From positions 1 through 64,000 of the IMG/VR virus record IMGVR_UViG_3300025012_000028: a DNA stretch of 64,000 nucleotides. The stretch is one strand, 5' to 3'. The DNA comes from a virus. This document shows positions 5,690-60,819 of the stretch, in pieces; the first letter of the stretch is position 1, and every line of letters begins with the position of its first letter. Under the pieces are notes generated by a model. It was not told the origin of the DNA. It made no database searches and worked only from the letters and a program-made list of their open reading frames with translations. A program made the translations under genes and the position numbers.

Positions 5690-5697
5690 TATAAATA
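5690..5697 (+). promoter_or_regulatory. T4-type late promoter TATAAATA
   Basis: Perfect match to the T4 late -10 consensus, 36 nt upstream of the rightward LAGLIDADG endonuclease start. Nothing else lies rightward of it before that gene. Confidence 0.75.
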
Positions 5698-10236: not shown

Positions 10237-10395
10237 TTGAAATTTACATGTCCATTCCATAAAAGTGAACTAATTCCGATAGATAAATATATATGGGGAT
10301 GTAATCGAAAGATTAAGACTAAAACATGTCCACATATAGTTTATTCACCTTCCGAGTTGATAGATGATAATGGGAAGGTGTTGGAGAAGAATTAG
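10237..10395 (+). CDS. Small zinc-finger-like protein, uvsY.-2 position, 52 aa
   Basis: TTG start directly after the previous stop; the TAG stop shares its G with the GTG start of uvsW. Sequence starts (M)KFTCPFH and has further C and CPH motifs, consistent with a small zinc-binding fold. Position matches T4 uvsY.-2. Confidence 0.6.
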   Translation: MKFTCPFHKSELIPIDKYIWGCNRKIKTKTCPHIVYSPSELIDDNGKVLEKN

Positions 10396-11936
10396 TGAAA
10401 TGTGATATAGTGGTTTCTAAAGTGAACGAATCAACGGTGTTTGTTGATTGTAATTCCTCTATTTGTCAGGAGTTGTCTACCTACTTCAGTGCATTTGTGG
10501 ATAATCATAAATTTATCCCATCGGTGCGTCAAGGTAGATGGGATGGTAAAATAAGAGCGTTTGATTCCAATACCAATCATCTACCGATTGGTCTTTTAAA
10601 TACTTTAAAAGAGTTTTGTATTAAAGGTAAATACACTCTAAAAATAGAATTTACCATCAAAGAACAAATAGACTTAAATACATTTAAACAGTTTATAGAT
10701 GGATTGAAAATAACAGATGATAAAGGAAATCCTATGACACCGAGGGATTTTCAATTGCAAGCGGCGTATGAAGCAATATGTAATAAACATTTGAATATTG
10801 ATAGTTCCACCGGTTCCGGTAAAAGCTTAATCATTTATATCATAACTAAATGGTTACTCACACAAAATAAGAAAATATTTATTGTGGTTCCTTCAGTAGC
10901 TCTTGTTGAACAATTAGTTCAAGATTTCTACGAATATGGATGGAAAGAGTGTGATGATAAAATTTGTAGGGTTTATGCAGGTCAAAAGAGACTAATGAAA
11001 CGACCCATCATTATTTCTACATGGCAGTCCTTGTTTGACAATGATGAAGAACTGAGTAAAATCGAAGCCCTAATTATTGATGAAGCACATGGTCAATCTG
11101 GAACTTCAAAAGCTTTTGCTAATGTTGCCAAGAAAAGCATCAACGCAGAATATAGAATAGGTCTTTCGGGTTCAATGCCAAAAAACGGCACTGCGGATTG
11201 GTTAACAACTGTTGGTGCGACTGGTCCAATCACAATTTTCTCAACTTATAAAAAGCTTCAAGATGCAAATCAGTTATCAAAATTGAAAATAAAGATGATA
11301 ATATTAGAATATCCCAACGTGATGCGGCAAGAGAACTACAAGGAAAATCAATCCAACTATTCAAACGAATCTGATTATATTAATGGATTGTTAGAAAGAA
11401 ATATTTTCATTAAGAAGTTGACGCAACAACTCAAAGGTAATACCTTAATTTTCTTTCAAAAAAAAACAAAACATGGTTATATATTACATAAAGAATTAAA
11501 GACGTTAATAGATAAGAAAGTTATCTATGTTGATGGGGATAATAAAGACTTAAATCATATAAGACAGTATATAGAGAATAATGATAATTGTGTATTATTA
11601 GGATCTAATGTTCTGGTGACTGGTATCAATATCAAAAGAATCCATAATATTATATTTGCTCAAATAGGAAAATCCGACAAAAAAATCAAACAGGCTCTTG
11701 GTCGTGGACTTCGTTTATATTCTGATAAAGAATATCTTAATGTGTTTGATATTGTCGATGATGTCAAAATCAAAGTTAAATACATAGATACAAATCAGAA
11801 TGAAAGATGGAAAACATATATTAATTATTCTTTACGACATGCAAAAGAGAGAAATAACATATATAAAAGTTTAGGATTTGATGTAGAACAATTAAAATAT
11901 CAAATTAAACAATATAAGAAAATTTCCACCCATTGA
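10395..11936 (+). CDS. uvsW: UvsW-like SF2 helicase
   Basis: 513 aa, GTG start. N-terminal ~100 residues match the UvsW DNA-binding region (VRQGRWDGKIRAF). Walker A is STGSGKS (~138-144), Walker B is DEAH (~228-231), SGS-type motif III and a C-terminal helicase domain with QALGRGLR (motif VI) follow. In T4, UvsW unwinds R-loops and remodels forks during the switch to recombination-dependent replication. Adjacent to UvsY as in T4. Its last 32 bases overlap an opposite-strand homing endonuclease gene. Confidence 0.92.
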   Translation: MKCDIVVSKVNESTVFVDCNSSICQELSTYFSAFVDNHKFIPSVRQGRWDGKIRAFDSNTNHLPIGLLNTLKEFCIKGKYTLKIEFTIKEQIDLNTFKQFIDGLKITDDKGNPMTPRDFQLQAAYEAICNKHLNIDSSTGSGKSLIIYIITKWLLTQNKKIFIVVPSVALVEQLVQDFYEYGWKECDDKICRVYAGQKRLMKRPIIISTWQSLFDNDEELSKIEALIIDEAHGQSGTSKAFANVAKKSINAEYRIGLSGSMPKNGTADWLTTVGATGPITIFSTYKKLQDANQLSKLKIKMIILEYPNVMRQENYKENQSNYSNESDYINGLLERNIFIKKLTQQLKGNTLIFFQKKTKHGYILHKELKTLIDKKVIYVDGDNKDLNHIRQYIENNDNCVLLGSNVLVTGINIKRIHNIIFAQIGKSDKKIKQALGRGLRLYSDKEYLNVFDIVDDVKIKVKYIDTNQNERWKTYINYSLRHAKERNNIYKSLGFDVEQLKYQIKQYKKISTH

Positions 11937-12783
11937 TAAATTTCTTTTTCTGATGTGTAATAGAAAAATTAGGATCATCTAATTTATGTTTGATTATGAA
12001 TTTACTAATTCCGACATGTTTAGATAGATCTGTCAGACCATATAAATATGAATATGAAACCCCATCAGGTGTCGATACCAAAATCTTAATGATATTATGC
12101 AATTTACTTCTATCTTTCATTCTTTCTTTTGCTTTTAAACTTATCGATTGACAGGTTTTTTCAGTATGATGTCTTCCATAAAAAGGATTTTTATCACCTG
12201 TTGCATTGATACTCATATTTTGTAATAATATTTCGGCCTTTTCTTTTCCGAAAATTTCTTCAAATGTTTTACCTGTCATCATTTCTTTAGATCTATTTCC
12301 AAAAGCCAGTAAAGTTTCTTCTGAGAAATTTTTGAGGACACCTTTTTGAGTTTCTGAAATACGTTTTTTCTTAGTTTTGGCTTTTTCTTCACCATATAAT
12401 TCTTCGTAAGTTTTATTGGCATTAGTTTCATTCATCAATTTCATCCGATGGGAAAGGAAAATCAAATGCTCTGGTGTTTTTTCGTGAGTTGCGAAAGTCT
12501 GTCCTCTTCCTCCCAAGTCGTGGTTGTAATTACTTCTCAATTTGATGAATTCTTTGGTCACTATCTGAGCTTCAATATCATATGCATCTTGTTCAGTCAA
12601 ACAATAATGAAGTATAGTTCTTCGAAAATTTTCTCTACCATATTTTTTAAACGCAAGTTTTAAATGCTTACCAGAACCTAAATAACCATCATCCAGATTT
12701 GTTGTTGAATGTTTACCGATATAGATTTTACCATTGATTAAATTACGAGTGAGATAGACAAGATGATAGATTTGATTTTCCAT
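11905..12783 (-). CDS. GIY-YIG homing endonuclease with NUMOD3-like repeat
   Basis: Start placed at ATG 12783 (MENQIYHLVYLTRN) because GGGAG sits 8 nt upstream; the longer frame to 12894 is leader RNA. Residues ~4-95 are a GIY-YIG domain (HLVYLTRN, KIYIGKHS, NFRRTIL). A NUMOD3-like block (NPFYGRHHTEKT) lies near 215, and the C-terminus is basic. A late promoter lies 96 nt upstream, and the leader between them resembles that of the HNH gene at 60.7 kb. Confidence 0.87.
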   Translation of the reverse strand: MENQIYHLVYLTRNLINGKIYIGKHSTTNLDDGYLGSGKHLKLAFKKYGRENFRRTILHYCLTEQDAYDIEAQIVTKEFIKLRSNYNHDLGGRGQTFATHEKTPEHLIFLSHRMKLMNETNANKTYEELYGEEKAKTKKKRISETQKGVLKNFSEETLLAFGNRSKEMMTGKTFEEIFGKEKAEILLQNMSINATGDKNPFYGRHHTEKTCQSISLKAKERMKDRSKLHNIIKILVSTPDGVSYSYLYGLTDLSKHVGISKFIIKHKLDDPNFSITHQKKKFINGWKFSYIV

Positions 12784-12878
12784 GACAGTCTCCCAGATAA
12801 ATAGATGTGGCAAGGACAACAGCGATTTCTCCCCGTTGCTTCCGTTCTGTTCCACCAGACGGATTACTTGCTCATTTC
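12784..12878 (-). promoter_or_regulatory. Conserved leader RNA of GIY-YIG gene
   Basis: Leftward 5' leader between late promoter and start codon. It has an AAATGAGCAAGT block, a hairpin (CCGT-CTG / CAG-A-ACGG), a second potential stem GCAAC/GTTGT holding GGGGAGA in its loop, CTGTTGTCCT, then TATTTAT and GGGAG. The same order recurs at 60715-60811. Confidence 0.6.
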
Positions 12879-12886
12879 TATTTATA
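12879..12886 (-). promoter_or_regulatory. T4-type late promoter (leftward)
   Basis: TATAAATA on the minus strand, followed by GAAATGAG. Upstream of the GIY-YIG leader. Confidence 0.72.
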
Positions 12887-12975
12887 AAATTCAAAAAGAA
12901 AATATTGACAGATTAATTTTTTTCATGAGATATTAGAAATAATATATAAACTATCAAATTAAAGGAAAATAAATC

Positions 12976-48928: not shown

Positions 48929-48936
48929 TATAAATA
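48929..48936 (+). promoter_or_regulatory. T4-type late promoter TATAAATA
   Basis: Late -10, 52 nt upstream of the 821-codon tail gene. Confidence 0.78.
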
Positions 48937-48987
48937 AGGGAGATAAGAATATAATCTTATCTCCCTTTCATTTTTAGAGGATAATAA

Positions 48988-51453
48988 ATGGACACAAATA
49001 GCATATCTAAAATATTGAACATGCACTTCAACAATACCAATTCTCTGTCTGACAAGTCGGATGAATATGGTTTTGATGAACATCAAAACAGTTTAATCCG
49101 CGAATCAAAGATAGTGTTGGCTCAGATTAAGAAATATGAAACTCTGGTCAGCACTTATGTTAGAAGAAGAAGTTCTTCAGGGACAAACTTAATTGCTAAA
49201 GATAAACAGGTTCAAATTATAAAATTATCAGAATTGGTCTTTACTGCATACAAAGCTATAGCTTCAGATGTTGATTATGAAAATGTTAAGAACGATAAAA
49301 AATTATTATCAGACGTTGGGATGTTATTAGCATCAGGCGATTTTGCTTTAACTTTGGCTCAAATAGGTTTATCGACTGCAAGATGGAATAAGATAAAGAA
49401 AACATTTGATGAAATTAAAATATTGTTGGACGGGTTCATTTCTTTCAAAGAAAGGAATCATCTTTCATTTAAGGACAAATGGAAAAATAGATTAAACACT
49501 TTTAAAAAGAATTTGCCTAAAGGTAAAAAAGCCAACTTATTAATGGCCGGAAAAATCGGTTTAGCAGGTTTGGGTATCGGCCTTGCTAAATTTGCTGCAA
49601 TCGCAACCAAATCTGGTGGAATAGAAAAACTTAAGTACCCTGCAACACTGTGGTTAGCAAAAATAGGTTATGATGTCAAAAAACAACGTGATGCTAGATT
49701 AAACCTGATACGCCAAATATCTTCCGCTGGTACAGAACTACATAGTAATTTAGCTACTGGCTCTATACGAAACAGATTAGCCGGTGGTGGATCGTATGTT
49801 GCTAAAAGAAATGCGCCTATCCTCATAGGTGACAATCCCGGTGGAAAAGAAAAGTTTGTAATTAAAAGAGGTCCATCTTCAATCGGTGGTAAAACAGCCG
49901 GTCCTACTCTGATGAACATGAAAATCGGAGATAAGATAAATGCATCTCCTCTTTCTGGTAAAGGTGTAACCAAAGTCAACACAAATGATCTTTCCAGATT
50001 TGGTGCTGGAACAGATGAAGAAATTTCCAACACCAGTGGTGTAGTGAGTGCAGTTAATAGAAATACATCAGTTCTGATTAAAATGTGGAAGTCTCAGACT
50101 GATTATTATAGAGATGATATTAGTCGAAAAGATGATTTGGCAAATGCCAATAAAGGAATCGGTAAAAGTAATTTTTCAAATTTATCTACAGGCCAAAAGA
50201 TCGGACAGTTTATCGATTCGAAAGACAAAGGTGGGTTTGTTAAATCAGTCTTAATGTCTGTCATAGAAGGATCGACTATTGGTGCAGTCGTTAAAAATGG
50301 TTTAGGTTCTACTGCTAAAACAGTTGGAAAAGGATTGATGAAACGTGCTCCTATGATTGGTGGTGTAATGTCAGGTGGATTGACATATGCTAGAACCGGC
50401 TCATTAGCTAAAGGAGTGGGTTCGGGTATAGGGTCGTTGGGTGGTGCTATAGGTGGAGCAAAGCTAGGTGCCACCATAGGGTCGTTCATAACACCGGGGG
50501 TTGGTACGGCTATAGGTGCAGCAATTGGAACCGTTGCTGGTGGGTTGATGGGCGATAAATTGGGTACATTTGTCGGTGGAGTATTTGAAGATTGGAAAAC
50601 CTATTGGGATAAAATAAAAGAATGGTTTCAACCTTTTCTCTCCGTGATGGGGAAAATTGGTGGTGGAACAATTAAAGCAGTAACATCTGGTTATGGTGCT
50701 GCGAAAAGTGCAGTCTCAAATGCATTTTCTGCTGGTAAAGAAGCAATTGGCATGGGAAGTAGAAGTGTAAGAAACAATAATCCCGGCAACATCAAAGTTC
50801 CTGTGGGTGGGTTGGAAGTTGCTAGAGCAAGATATAATGATCCTAATATTAGTATCGATCCGAATCCTGCTAGTGATGGTGGACACTTCTTAAAGTTTTC
50901 TAGTGTGGAAAAAGGAAAAGCAGCAATACCCAAATTATTAAAAACCACTTCATCTAATTTATCTGTCAACGATGCTCTACGGAAATGGAGCAACAACGCA
51001 TATGGCGATGAAATTGTCCCGGCTCTCAAAGGTAAAACAATTGGCAGTTTAAATGAATCCGAACTGACTTCATTACAAAACGCAATGCAAAATCGTGAAG
51101 GTTGGAAACCTGCGGCGATCAATAGGAATGCTAATCTTCCATCCCAAATTGATGCAGCACAATCTAAATCACCCTTATCAAAAGTTCCGGTTCCTTCACC
51201 ACCAATGAAATTTAAACAGGCTCAAGTCGAAGTTAGTATGGCGACTGGTCTTGAAAGAATGAAGATCAACGAACAAGAAGCATCGAAACGAGCATATGAA
51301 CAATCCTTATTGGGTTCTATAACCAATATGGGAAATACTATCATAAATAACGTCAACAATGGTGGGGGTGGTAGATCAACACCATCTATTGTTTCATCTG
51401 GTGATGGCTCTCTAGTAAGTTTATATACTGCTGGATTGAGTGGAGGGTTTTAA
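48988..51453 (+). CDS. Tape-measure/hub protein with murein-hydrolase-like domain
   Basis: 821 aa. Coiled-coil N-terminus (~1-170), a hydrophobic stretch (~185-205), a Gly/Ala-rich membrane-active segment (~480-530), then a domain beginning RNNNPGNIK (~593-715) seen in phage peptidoglycan-hydrolysing virion proteins. Gene order (tube, chaperone, this, gp48/54-like) puts it at the gp29 position. It probably sets tail length, then crosses the membrane and cuts cell wall. No lysozyme exists in the gp5-like proteins here, so this may replace it. Confidence 0.7.
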   Translation: MDTNSISKILNMHFNNTNSLSDKSDEYGFDEHQNSLIRESKIVLAQIKKYETLVSTYVRRRSSSGTNLIAKDKQVQIIKLSELVFTAYKAIASDVDYENVKNDKKLLSDVGMLLASGDFALTLAQIGLSTARWNKIKKTFDEIKILLDGFISFKERNHLSFKDKWKNRLNTFKKNLPKGKKANLLMAGKIGLAGLGIGLAKFAAIATKSGGIEKLKYPATLWLAKIGYDVKKQRDARLNLIRQISSAGTELHSNLATGSIRNRLAGGGSYVAKRNAPILIGDNPGGKEKFVIKRGPSSIGGKTAGPTLMNMKIGDKINASPLSGKGVTKVNTNDLSRFGAGTDEEISNTSGVVSAVNRNTSVLIKMWKSQTDYYRDDISRKDDLANANKGIGKSNFSNLSTGQKIGQFIDSKDKGGFVKSVLMSVIEGSTIGAVVKNGLGSTAKTVGKGLMKRAPMIGGVMSGGLTYARTGSLAKGVGSGIGSLGGAIGGAKLGATIGSFITPGVGTAIGAAIGTVAGGLMGDKLGTFVGGVFEDWKTYWDKIKEWFQPFLSVMGKIGGGTIKAVTSGYGAAKSAVSNAFSAGKEAIGMGSRSVRNNNPGNIKVPVGGLEVARARYNDPNISIDPNPASDGGHFLKFSSVEKGKAAIPKLLKTTSSNLSVNDALRKWSNNAYGDEIVPALKGKTIGSLNESELTSLQNAMQNREGWKPAAINRNANLPSQIDAAQSKSPLSKVPVPSPPMKFKQAQVEVSMATGLERMKINEQEASKRAYEQSLLGSITNMGNTIINNVNNGGGGRSTPSIVSSGDGSLVSLYTAGLSGGF

Positions 51454-59789: not shown

Positions 59790-60714
59790 TGTTTATCCAA
59801 CTTGAGATGAGAATAAATTTTGTTGATATGAGAAAGAAAATCTTCTTGTGTAAAATCCCATTTCATCCTATTGCAATGTTGGCAACATGATACCACATAT
59901 ACCCCTTTGAAGAATCTATTCTATCTATTCCAATATTACTATCATTGCCACAATATCCGCAAGTTGAGTGTAGTAATTTATCAAAATCTTCTTTTGAAAT
60001 GGAAAAATCTAAATTCCTCTCTTTTGCTTTGGTCGAATATCTATAAAACAAATTTCCATATTTTGGTTTGTTTCTGTGGTTATAATTGAAAGGTGAACGT
60101 TGAAATTTTATTATTTTAGTAATATGATTTAATATATTATCCAAATTAAAATTCATCTTAGCTATATTGCATCTATAACAACACGAACAACAATTATCCA
60201 ACGTGTAACCAAGTTCATTATCAATTCTATCTATTCCTATAGTTTCTATATCGTTCCCACAATATGAACAGGACAAATTCCAAAAAGATTCAAACTCTAT
60301 TAAAGATAAACCAAATTCAATTTTTCTCTGAGTTGCACTGTTTTTATATTGATTATATTTGCCTTTAATTGTTTTACTATATTTTTTACTTCGTATTAAA
60401 TGTGCTTCTTTATTTTTATTGTAATCTTCTTTATCTAAATCTCTGGCTTGTTTTAAATTTTGTATTCTCCAAGTTTTCCTTTGAATACTTCTTTCTTCCG
60501 AATGATTATCTCTGTATATTTTATTTTTCTTTAATATTTCAGATTTATTTTCTTGGTAATATATTTTACATTGTTCGATCCTATTAAACGCAATATCCTC
60601 TTTATTATCTGATCGGTATTGATTAATTTTATCTTTATTTTTTCTTCTATATTCTTTATCATACTCTTTCTTTTTCTGTTTCTTTTCATCCGTTGGAAAT
60701 TTTTCTGCTGACAT
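59786..60714 (-). pseudogene. HNH homing endonuclease, frameshifted in second zinc module
   Basis: 283-codon open part (60714-59863) with a long basic N-terminus, one complete module (CSYCGNDIETIGIDRID ... CCYRCN) and the start of another (CGYCGNDSNIGIDRID). A frame change near 59885-59904 breaks the second module; its tail (VVSCCQHCNRMKWDF ... HLKLDKQ) continues in another frame to 59786 and still overlaps the next ATG. The intact first module may still be functional. Confidence 0.7.
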
Positions 60715-60811
60715 TCGTCAATCTCCTTTATAAATATGTAATGAATGAGGACAACAGTAATAATCTCCTGCTGCTGTTTAATTGTCTCTAGCAATTAAAC
60801 TTACTCATTTT
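60715..60811 (-). promoter_or_regulatory. Conserved leader RNA of HNH gene
   Basis: Leftward leader: AAATGAGTAAGT, hairpin TTTAATTG/CAATTAAA, potential stem CAGCAG/CTGTTG holding GGAGA, CTGTTGTCCT, TATTTAT, AAGGAG. The block order equals that of the GIY-YIG leader at 12.8 kb, with different stem bases. Confidence 0.62.
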
Positions 60812-60819
60812 TATTTATA
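60812..60819 (-). promoter_or_regulatory. T4-type late promoter (leftward)
   Basis: TATAAATA on the minus strand, start of the HNH/effector operon. Confidence 0.78.

Follow-up and report, generated by a model that had tools for sequence, protein, structure and literature searches.

Two unrelated homing endonuclease genes, one of the GIY-YIG and one of the HNH type, are preceded by a similar late-promoter leader in the stretch of DNA analysed here (the window, 64,000 nt), which is part of the 214,553-bp record of a T4-like phage in IMG/VR. Among the selfish genes of T4-like phages, homing endonucleases have been studied most closely, and control of the harm that they do to the carrier has been examined gene by gene. 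The locus raises the question of whether the similarity is confined to the promoter and the ribosome-binding site (RBS) or reflects a common element, and what such an element would do.

A folded leader common to two endonuclease genes

The features of the two leaders, designated copies A and B, and of their genes are as follows.

Copy B and its gene
12886-12796, minus: whole element, before the GIY-YIG gene
12879-12886, minus: late promoter TATAAATA, also the 5' strand of helix P1
12867-12871, minus: 5' strand of helix P2, GCAAG
12864-12866, minus: joint between P2 and P3, the conserved UAA
12841-12863, minus: hairpin P3, TCCGTCTG-GTGGAA-CAGAACGGA
12816-12839, minus: hairpin P4, GCAACGG...CTGTTGT
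12828-12833, minus: RBS copy GGGAGA in the P4 loop region, letters identical to 12794-12789
12810-12814, minus: 3' strand of P2, CTTGC
12796-12803, minus: 3' strand of P1 (P1'), TATTTATC, abutting the RBS
12784-12795, minus: RBS TGGGAGACTGTC, an SD plus a GTC motif directly 5' of the ATG
11905-12783, minus: GIY-YIG homing endonuclease with NUMOD3, 292 aa, adjoining uvsW

Copy A and its gene
60819-60729, minus: whole element, before the HNH gene
60812-60819, minus: late promoter TATAAATA, also the 5' strand of P1
60729-60811, minus: remainder of the element
60809-60804/60749-60744, minus: P2
60803-60801, minus: UAA joint
60800-60792/60784-60776, minus: P3
60774-60768/60757-60751, minus: P4
60762-60769, minus: RBS copy AGGAGATT, inside P4
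60736-60729, minus: P1'
60715-60728, minus: RBS AAGGAGATTGACGA
59863-60714, minus: HNH homing-endonuclease-like gene, 283 aa

Copy B reads, from 12886 to 12784 on the minus strand, TATAAATA, then GAAATGAGCAAGTAATCC..., then the GIY-YIG ATG at 12783, with GAAATGAGCAAGTAA after TATAAATA; copy A carries TATAAATA at 60819-60812 plus AAAATGAGTAAGTTTAATTGCTAG. Both leaders fold alike, into P1, P2 and the hairpins P3 and P4 (MFE z = -3.84 and -2.91), P1 being formed by the promoter TATAAATA paired with TATTTAT just 5' of the SD. An earlier note on this DNA had proposed that the two genes share a leader, a proposal which is borne out and was understated, as the same three-way-junction fold is present besides the promoter and RBS; the P1 helix, the junction itself, the further copies and the RBS copy in the P4 loop were overlooked. 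The near-identity that it described at the junction holds as a similarity only, since copy A reads AAAATGAGTAAGT, one mismatch from GAAATGAG(C/T)AAGT, and the junction 13-mer taken alone is weakly significant (2 matches against 0.34 expected). Three loci recovered with the first junction pattern proved unrelated, with no match to covariance model R2, and at L001 (13989-14095, TATAAATAAAAATGAGTAAGTAAAT...ATTTACTTACTCA) the same junction words occur in an unrelated late-promoter hairpin unmatched by the model.

The consensus runs from TATAAATA, the 5' strand of P1, through 3–9 nt, P2 (5–7 bp), UAA, P3 and AACAG-[P4 loop]-CUGCUGUC to P2', ∼6 nt of CACATC-like sequence, P1' (TATTTATN), the SD, about 4 nt, (A/G)TC and the ATG, with a total element length of 84–97 nt (∼90 nt). 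The joints UAA, AACAG and CUGUC are conserved, and RTC stands directly before the start codon in 46 of 50 element-bearing genes as against 21% of other ORFs. The sequence of P3 is variable and often consists of 5 bp, a bulged A and 3 bp; the bulged A is often on the 3' side after the 5 bp and the loop is of the CNNNAA type, and together these may be a second recognition feature. The outer ends of P1 are weak in a few copies.

Covariation is strong, with 178 cells changed on both sides against 49 when shuffled. In a structure-aware alignment of five copies, 94.7% of cells are paired and 19 of 33 pairs are changed on both sides (0/500 shuffles). With 30 aligned copies, in which P3 was fitted by maximal pairing and P2 anchored on TAA and TGTC, 93.8% are paired versus 73.3% in shuffled and 34–48% in slid controls, and the covariation score is 0.510 compared with 0.157±0.010 shuffled and ≤0.104 when slid. 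P2 is 98.0% paired with two-sided changes at all five pairs, and P3 97.8% paired with such changes at 10 of 11 scored pairs, 15 pairs together; the earlier note named, as the finding that would undo its claim, a likeness confined to the promoter and the ribosome site, and the broader alignment shows otherwise. G.U pairs are nearly absent: 0/235 in the outer P3 helix and 3/490 in P2 and P3 combined, compared with 87/1096 (7.9%) in tRNA stems of the same loci. Selection on one RNA strand alone would not predict this scarcity in P3, which suggests that both strands are under selection, that pairing matters in the DNA or that repair is templated.

Several observations concern the two genes themselves. 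The copy B leader is open throughout in the endonuclease frame (329 aa from a TTG at 12894; 12894-11905, minus), and gene callers may therefore set a false long start at this copy. uvsW is convergent with the GIY-YIG gene and the gene ends overlap (window 10395-12783); T4 segE also lies beside uvsW (PMC2988022 table). The HNH protein (59863-60714, minus) matches PHROGs annotated 'decoy of host sigma70', 'Srd anti-sigma factor' and endonuclease VII, matches that hint at a common ancestry of these T4 proteins.

Distribution of the element and the genes behind it

Scanning the genome for TATAAATA with its complement 82–85 nt downstream yielded three further copies:

genome 109602, plus: before a GIY-YIG/NUMOD3 gene
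genome 114331, plus: before a gene with a DUF4379/CapR (treble-clef) domain
genome 157589, plus: before a DUF4379/CapR gene matching PHROGs annotated HNH/homing endonuclease

Covariance model R1 finds exactly five copies in the 214,553-bp genome (58–73 bits), all before homing endonuclease genes and all with TATAAATA in the 5' arm of the structure; the other matches are the reverse strands of four of them. The scores of the two window copies (65.6 and 58.6 bits) are a matter of construction because the model was built with both, which does not affect the further copies. Patterns derived from the five copies picked out 49 loci in IMG/VR, which R1 confirmed for the most part. With model R2, about 19 copies then came to light in a phage of 213 kb, about 8 in another of 204 kb and several in further phages, and a final scan supplied a few more. 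Covariance models and pattern scans together give at least 55 distinct copies in IMG/VR phage contigs, a count of distinct sequences, mostly from metagenomic contigs, with one remnant left out; E-values of these home-made models are rough. TATAAATA is exact in 47 of the 55 and differs by one base in the remaining 8, but the early patterns required TATAAATA and TATTTAT, and their conservation is thus partly by construction; R2 later returned the variants GATAAATA, CATAAATA and TCTAAATA. In the 213-kb phage (IMGVR_UViG_3300002895_000002; L026-L110) the ∼19 copies lie on one strand, and the homing-endonuclease load is unusually heavy. UvsW of five element-bearing phages is 26–43% identical to that of the window, indicating that the element spans deep divergence.

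The element is absent from eight isolates (T4, Aeromonas 25, 44RR2.8t, Proteus PM2, pf16, Acj61, SCTP-2 and Vibrio 150E35-1), and none of 55 pattern matches in 84,980 bacterial and archaeal genomes is real by R2, a search that doubles as a negative control. No relatives of leaders A, B, C and E were detected by blastn against 50,697 phage records, and no related locus was found with the two endonuclease proteins. Rfam 15, under strict and relaxed settings, returned tRNAs only, no other family reaching its gathering threshold, with no credible weak match to ribozymes, riboswitches or group I introns over the element. The element is a folded leader family previously unlisted.

Nearly all copies lie directly 5' of homing-endonuclease genes, intact or decayed, that belong to unrelated families. 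The families comprise GIY-YIG genes of the Seg and LEM-3 types, often with NUMOD3, HNH genes (phrog_655; endonuclease VII-like), DUF723/DUF4379 treble-clef genes and DUF7487 endonuclease-like genes; evidence for an endonuclease family is weak or absent at L115, L042 and L043. Some copies precede broken genes or no gene, leaders having been kept at decayed endonuclease genes (early stop, truncation) or without a gene at L095/L039, L099 and L118 in the 213-kb and 204-kb phages.

The other late-promoter mobile genes of the window had been described as lacking the leader, correctly, as neither covariance model matches elsewhere in the window. Late promoters at 5690 (endonuclease phrog_4645), 7372 (GIY-YIG) and 43359 (HNH phrog_655) have a short leader without the element, and the same phage thus has homing endonuclease genes with and without it. 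At 48929-48966 (plus), upstream of an 821-aa ORF at 48988, TATAAATA runs straight into a strong hairpin (GGGAGATAAGA...TCTTATCTCCC) with a T-run behind it, which is a different promoter-hairpin or terminator arrangement.

A copy of the ribosome-binding site in the P4 loop

The P4 loop repeats ∼8 nt of the RBS of its own gene, a match that takes in the SD core together with some four bases of the spacer. Across the 32 discovery copies, the mean length of the longest string common to loop and RBS is 7.53 nt, versus 4.80±0.21 when RBSs are permuted between copies (0/20,000), and other parts of the leader share 4–5 nt with the RBS. The 20 copies found later by R2 give 7.0 versus 4.64±0.25 (0/20,000) and the pooled copies 7.45 versus 4.72±0.15 (0/20,000). 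The match is gene-specific within a single 213-kb phage, at 7.5 versus 5.09±0.35 (0/20,000). Examples of loop/RBS pairs are GGAGTAAG/GGAGTAAG, GGAGTCAC/GGAGTCAC and GAAAGGTT/GAAAGGTT, and the remnant L118, which has no endonuclease gene, retains GGGAGCTACCC in P4. Control through a gene-matched RBS replica in a gene's own leader would, to our knowledge, be of a kind without earlier description.

No complement to the RBS above the level of permutation was found in cis (upstream, P3, P2'/P1' or early ORF), and a simple cis strand-exchange switch using the RBS copy is therefore unlikely. RegB cutting of GGAG was rejected as the reason for the copy, many copies being of GGGG, GAGG or AAGG types. 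Binding of a protein specific to each endonuclease gene is unlikely, as the same 8-mers occur with unrelated proteins within one phage, and translation from the P4 pseudo-RBS was rejected as no frame is kept. To account for the RBS copy, either some partner must recognise both sites or the repeat must arise by copying, and the only partner that would by itself co-vary is the opposite strand.

A probable role in translational timing, and alternative functions

We interpret the element as a modular regulatory unit placed 5' of homing-endonuclease genes in phages, its closing helix incorporating a T4-type late promoter. The fold, the position before unrelated endonuclease genes, the joints, RTC before the ATG and the gene-specific RBS copy emerge directly from the computation; the role is probably that of a translational timing gate. 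In T4, late transcription begins about 6 nt downstream of TATAAATA. A read-through transcript of the early or middle class would contain TATAAATA, which would pair with TATTTATN and close P1 against the SD. Late transcripts would lack the 5' strand of P1, the AU-rich stretch before the SD would be single-stranded, and the endonuclease would be made late only. In the least certain step, the P2-P3-P4 core, with which the late mRNA would begin, would present the loop with the RBS copy to whatever binds the RBS. Predicted accessibility of the P1 3' strand is 0.13 in read-through and 0.67 in late RNA; this shift in openness, combined with the T4 promoter-in-arm design of P1, favours the timing gate. 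Predicted accessibility of the SD, which lies just outside P1, changes from 0.28 in read-through to 0.40 in late RNA (0.47 for the element without upstream flank), a shift that is only modest and counts against a gate, as do the weak outer ends of P1 and the near-absence of G.U in P3. A plain hairpin would suffice for a gate, and the junction and RBS copy consequently need further explanation.

Timing of this kind is known in T4-like phages, in which the RBS of homing endonuclease genes is buried in a structure with a late promoter in its 5' arm and only late transcripts are translated, as for I-TevI, I-TevII, I-TevIII, T4 segB and Aeh1 mobE (PMC2988022, PMC3014915). The present element resembles these in the placement of the late promoter; in the I-TevI-type hairpins read-through transcripts are silenced and the late transcript is freed (PMC2988022, PMC3014915), as is proposed here from predicted accessibility. 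Those leaders are gene-specific simple hairpins burying the SD, whereas the present element is one three-way-junction family across unrelated genes, in which P1 abuts the SD without burying it and a loop holds an RBS copy. The 3' arm pairs with neither SD nor AUG, as P1' ends before the SD, and complementarity of upstream sequence to the gene's own RBS is no greater than to the RBSs of other genes. The leader of the homing endonuclease gene seg43(25) of Aeromonas phage 25 likewise forms a highly stable structure immediately 5' of the RBS, with the SD outside (PMC2988022). That leader, however, is a single 9-bp hairpin without TATAAATA, and homology was rejected, as R2 gives no match with filters off and the hairpin does not align with the element. 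Inhibitory structures at the RBS also occur in the leaders of T4 genes e, soc and 49, and the 5' arm of the gene e structure contains late promoters (PMC3014915). These leaders differ from this endonuclease-leader fold, have no fold common between genes and no described RBS copy. In the split RBSs of T4 genes 25 and 38, RNA structure near the SD also alters initiation (PMC3014915), but it does so by bringing a single SD up to the AUG, whereas the present element has two SDs, the real one already well placed.

A wider reading, which we put forward tentatively, is that the element is a mobile, self-contained module comprising a late promoter, a folded gate and a loop replica of the gene's RBS, the replica being required because one partner, be it an antisense RNA, the ribosome or a repressor, recognises these ∼8 nt at both sites, and that unrelated endonuclease genes have gained this module repeatedly.

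Somewhat doubtful, and compatible with the timing gate, is a role of the P4 loop as an exposed pseudo-RBS, a decoy or docking site that would bind the partner of the real RBS (30S, S1 or a phage RNA-binding factor) and lower or stage synthesis. The SD core is present in both loop and RBS in nearly all copies, the loop is predicted to be half-open in late RNA (0.55), RTC is conserved before the ATG, and UGUC stands after the loop. Anti-SD pairing, however, cannot read the ∼4 variable spacer nt of the copy, and the copy is gene-specific within one phage.

It is unlikely that the element acts at the DNA level, either as single-stranded or cruciform DNA (a recombination cassette joint) or as pairing and an RBS repeat kept by templated (quasipalindrome or slippage) repair. 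The scarcity of G.U in P2 and P3 relative to tRNAs is consistent with such an origin, as are the occurrence of one module before unrelated genes and the spacing of the direct repeats, 34–50 nt apart. The conserved single-stranded joints and strict position before the SD nevertheless point to function in mRNA, there is no sign of the joint moving genes, and repair alone leaves unexplained why the loop always equals the RBS.

We do not favour, and consider still less likely, a cis-encoded antisense RNA, for which P1' would serve as a late promoter on the opposite strand; the RNA would begin within the element and carry, as complement of the P4 loop, an anti-RBS loop pairing with the RBS in trans, and the copy would be required because antisense transcription does not extend over the RBS itself. 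Such an RNA would explain both the RBS copy and the absence of G.U. In its favour, the identity runs over variable bases as in base pairing, P2 and P3 are kept Watson-Crick on both strands, predicted openness is higher for the anti-RBS of the antisense RNA (0.74 vs 0.55), and mismatches lean towards G.U-compatible ones (9 vs 3, mostly in one lineage). The antisense TATAAATA, however, is perfect in only 27 of 55 copies, with 22 first-base variants and 6 broken; the RBS copy persists in these 6 (mean 7.7 nt), and antisense terminators show no excess (6 vs 7 of 52).

A leader peptide or attenuation frame of 3 to 6 codons, suggested in the earlier note from mini-frames that do exist (ATG AGC AAG TAA in B, ATG AGT AAG TTT AAT TGC TAG in A), is refuted as a general feature and extremely improbable as the function, as the frames are not conserved, ATG is present in only 16 of 55 copies and ATG, GTG and TTG are all missing in 25, no conserved short ORF of the attenuator type occurs across the 55 leaders, the loop-to-RBS spacing keeps no reading frame (18/16/14 mod 3), and the supposed stop codon TAA is the single-stranded joint linking P2 and P3.

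The presence of one structured leader across unrelated nuclease families, in up to ∼19 copies per phage, implies that a single regulatory part has been passed on together with selfish genes or from one to another. That the loop matches the RBS of its own gene is a rule that was not expected and is easy to test. The covariance model provides a marker for homing endonuclease genes of unrecognised families and for the remnants of lost ones, and leader remnants such as those at L095/L039, L099 and L118 could date the loss of these genes.
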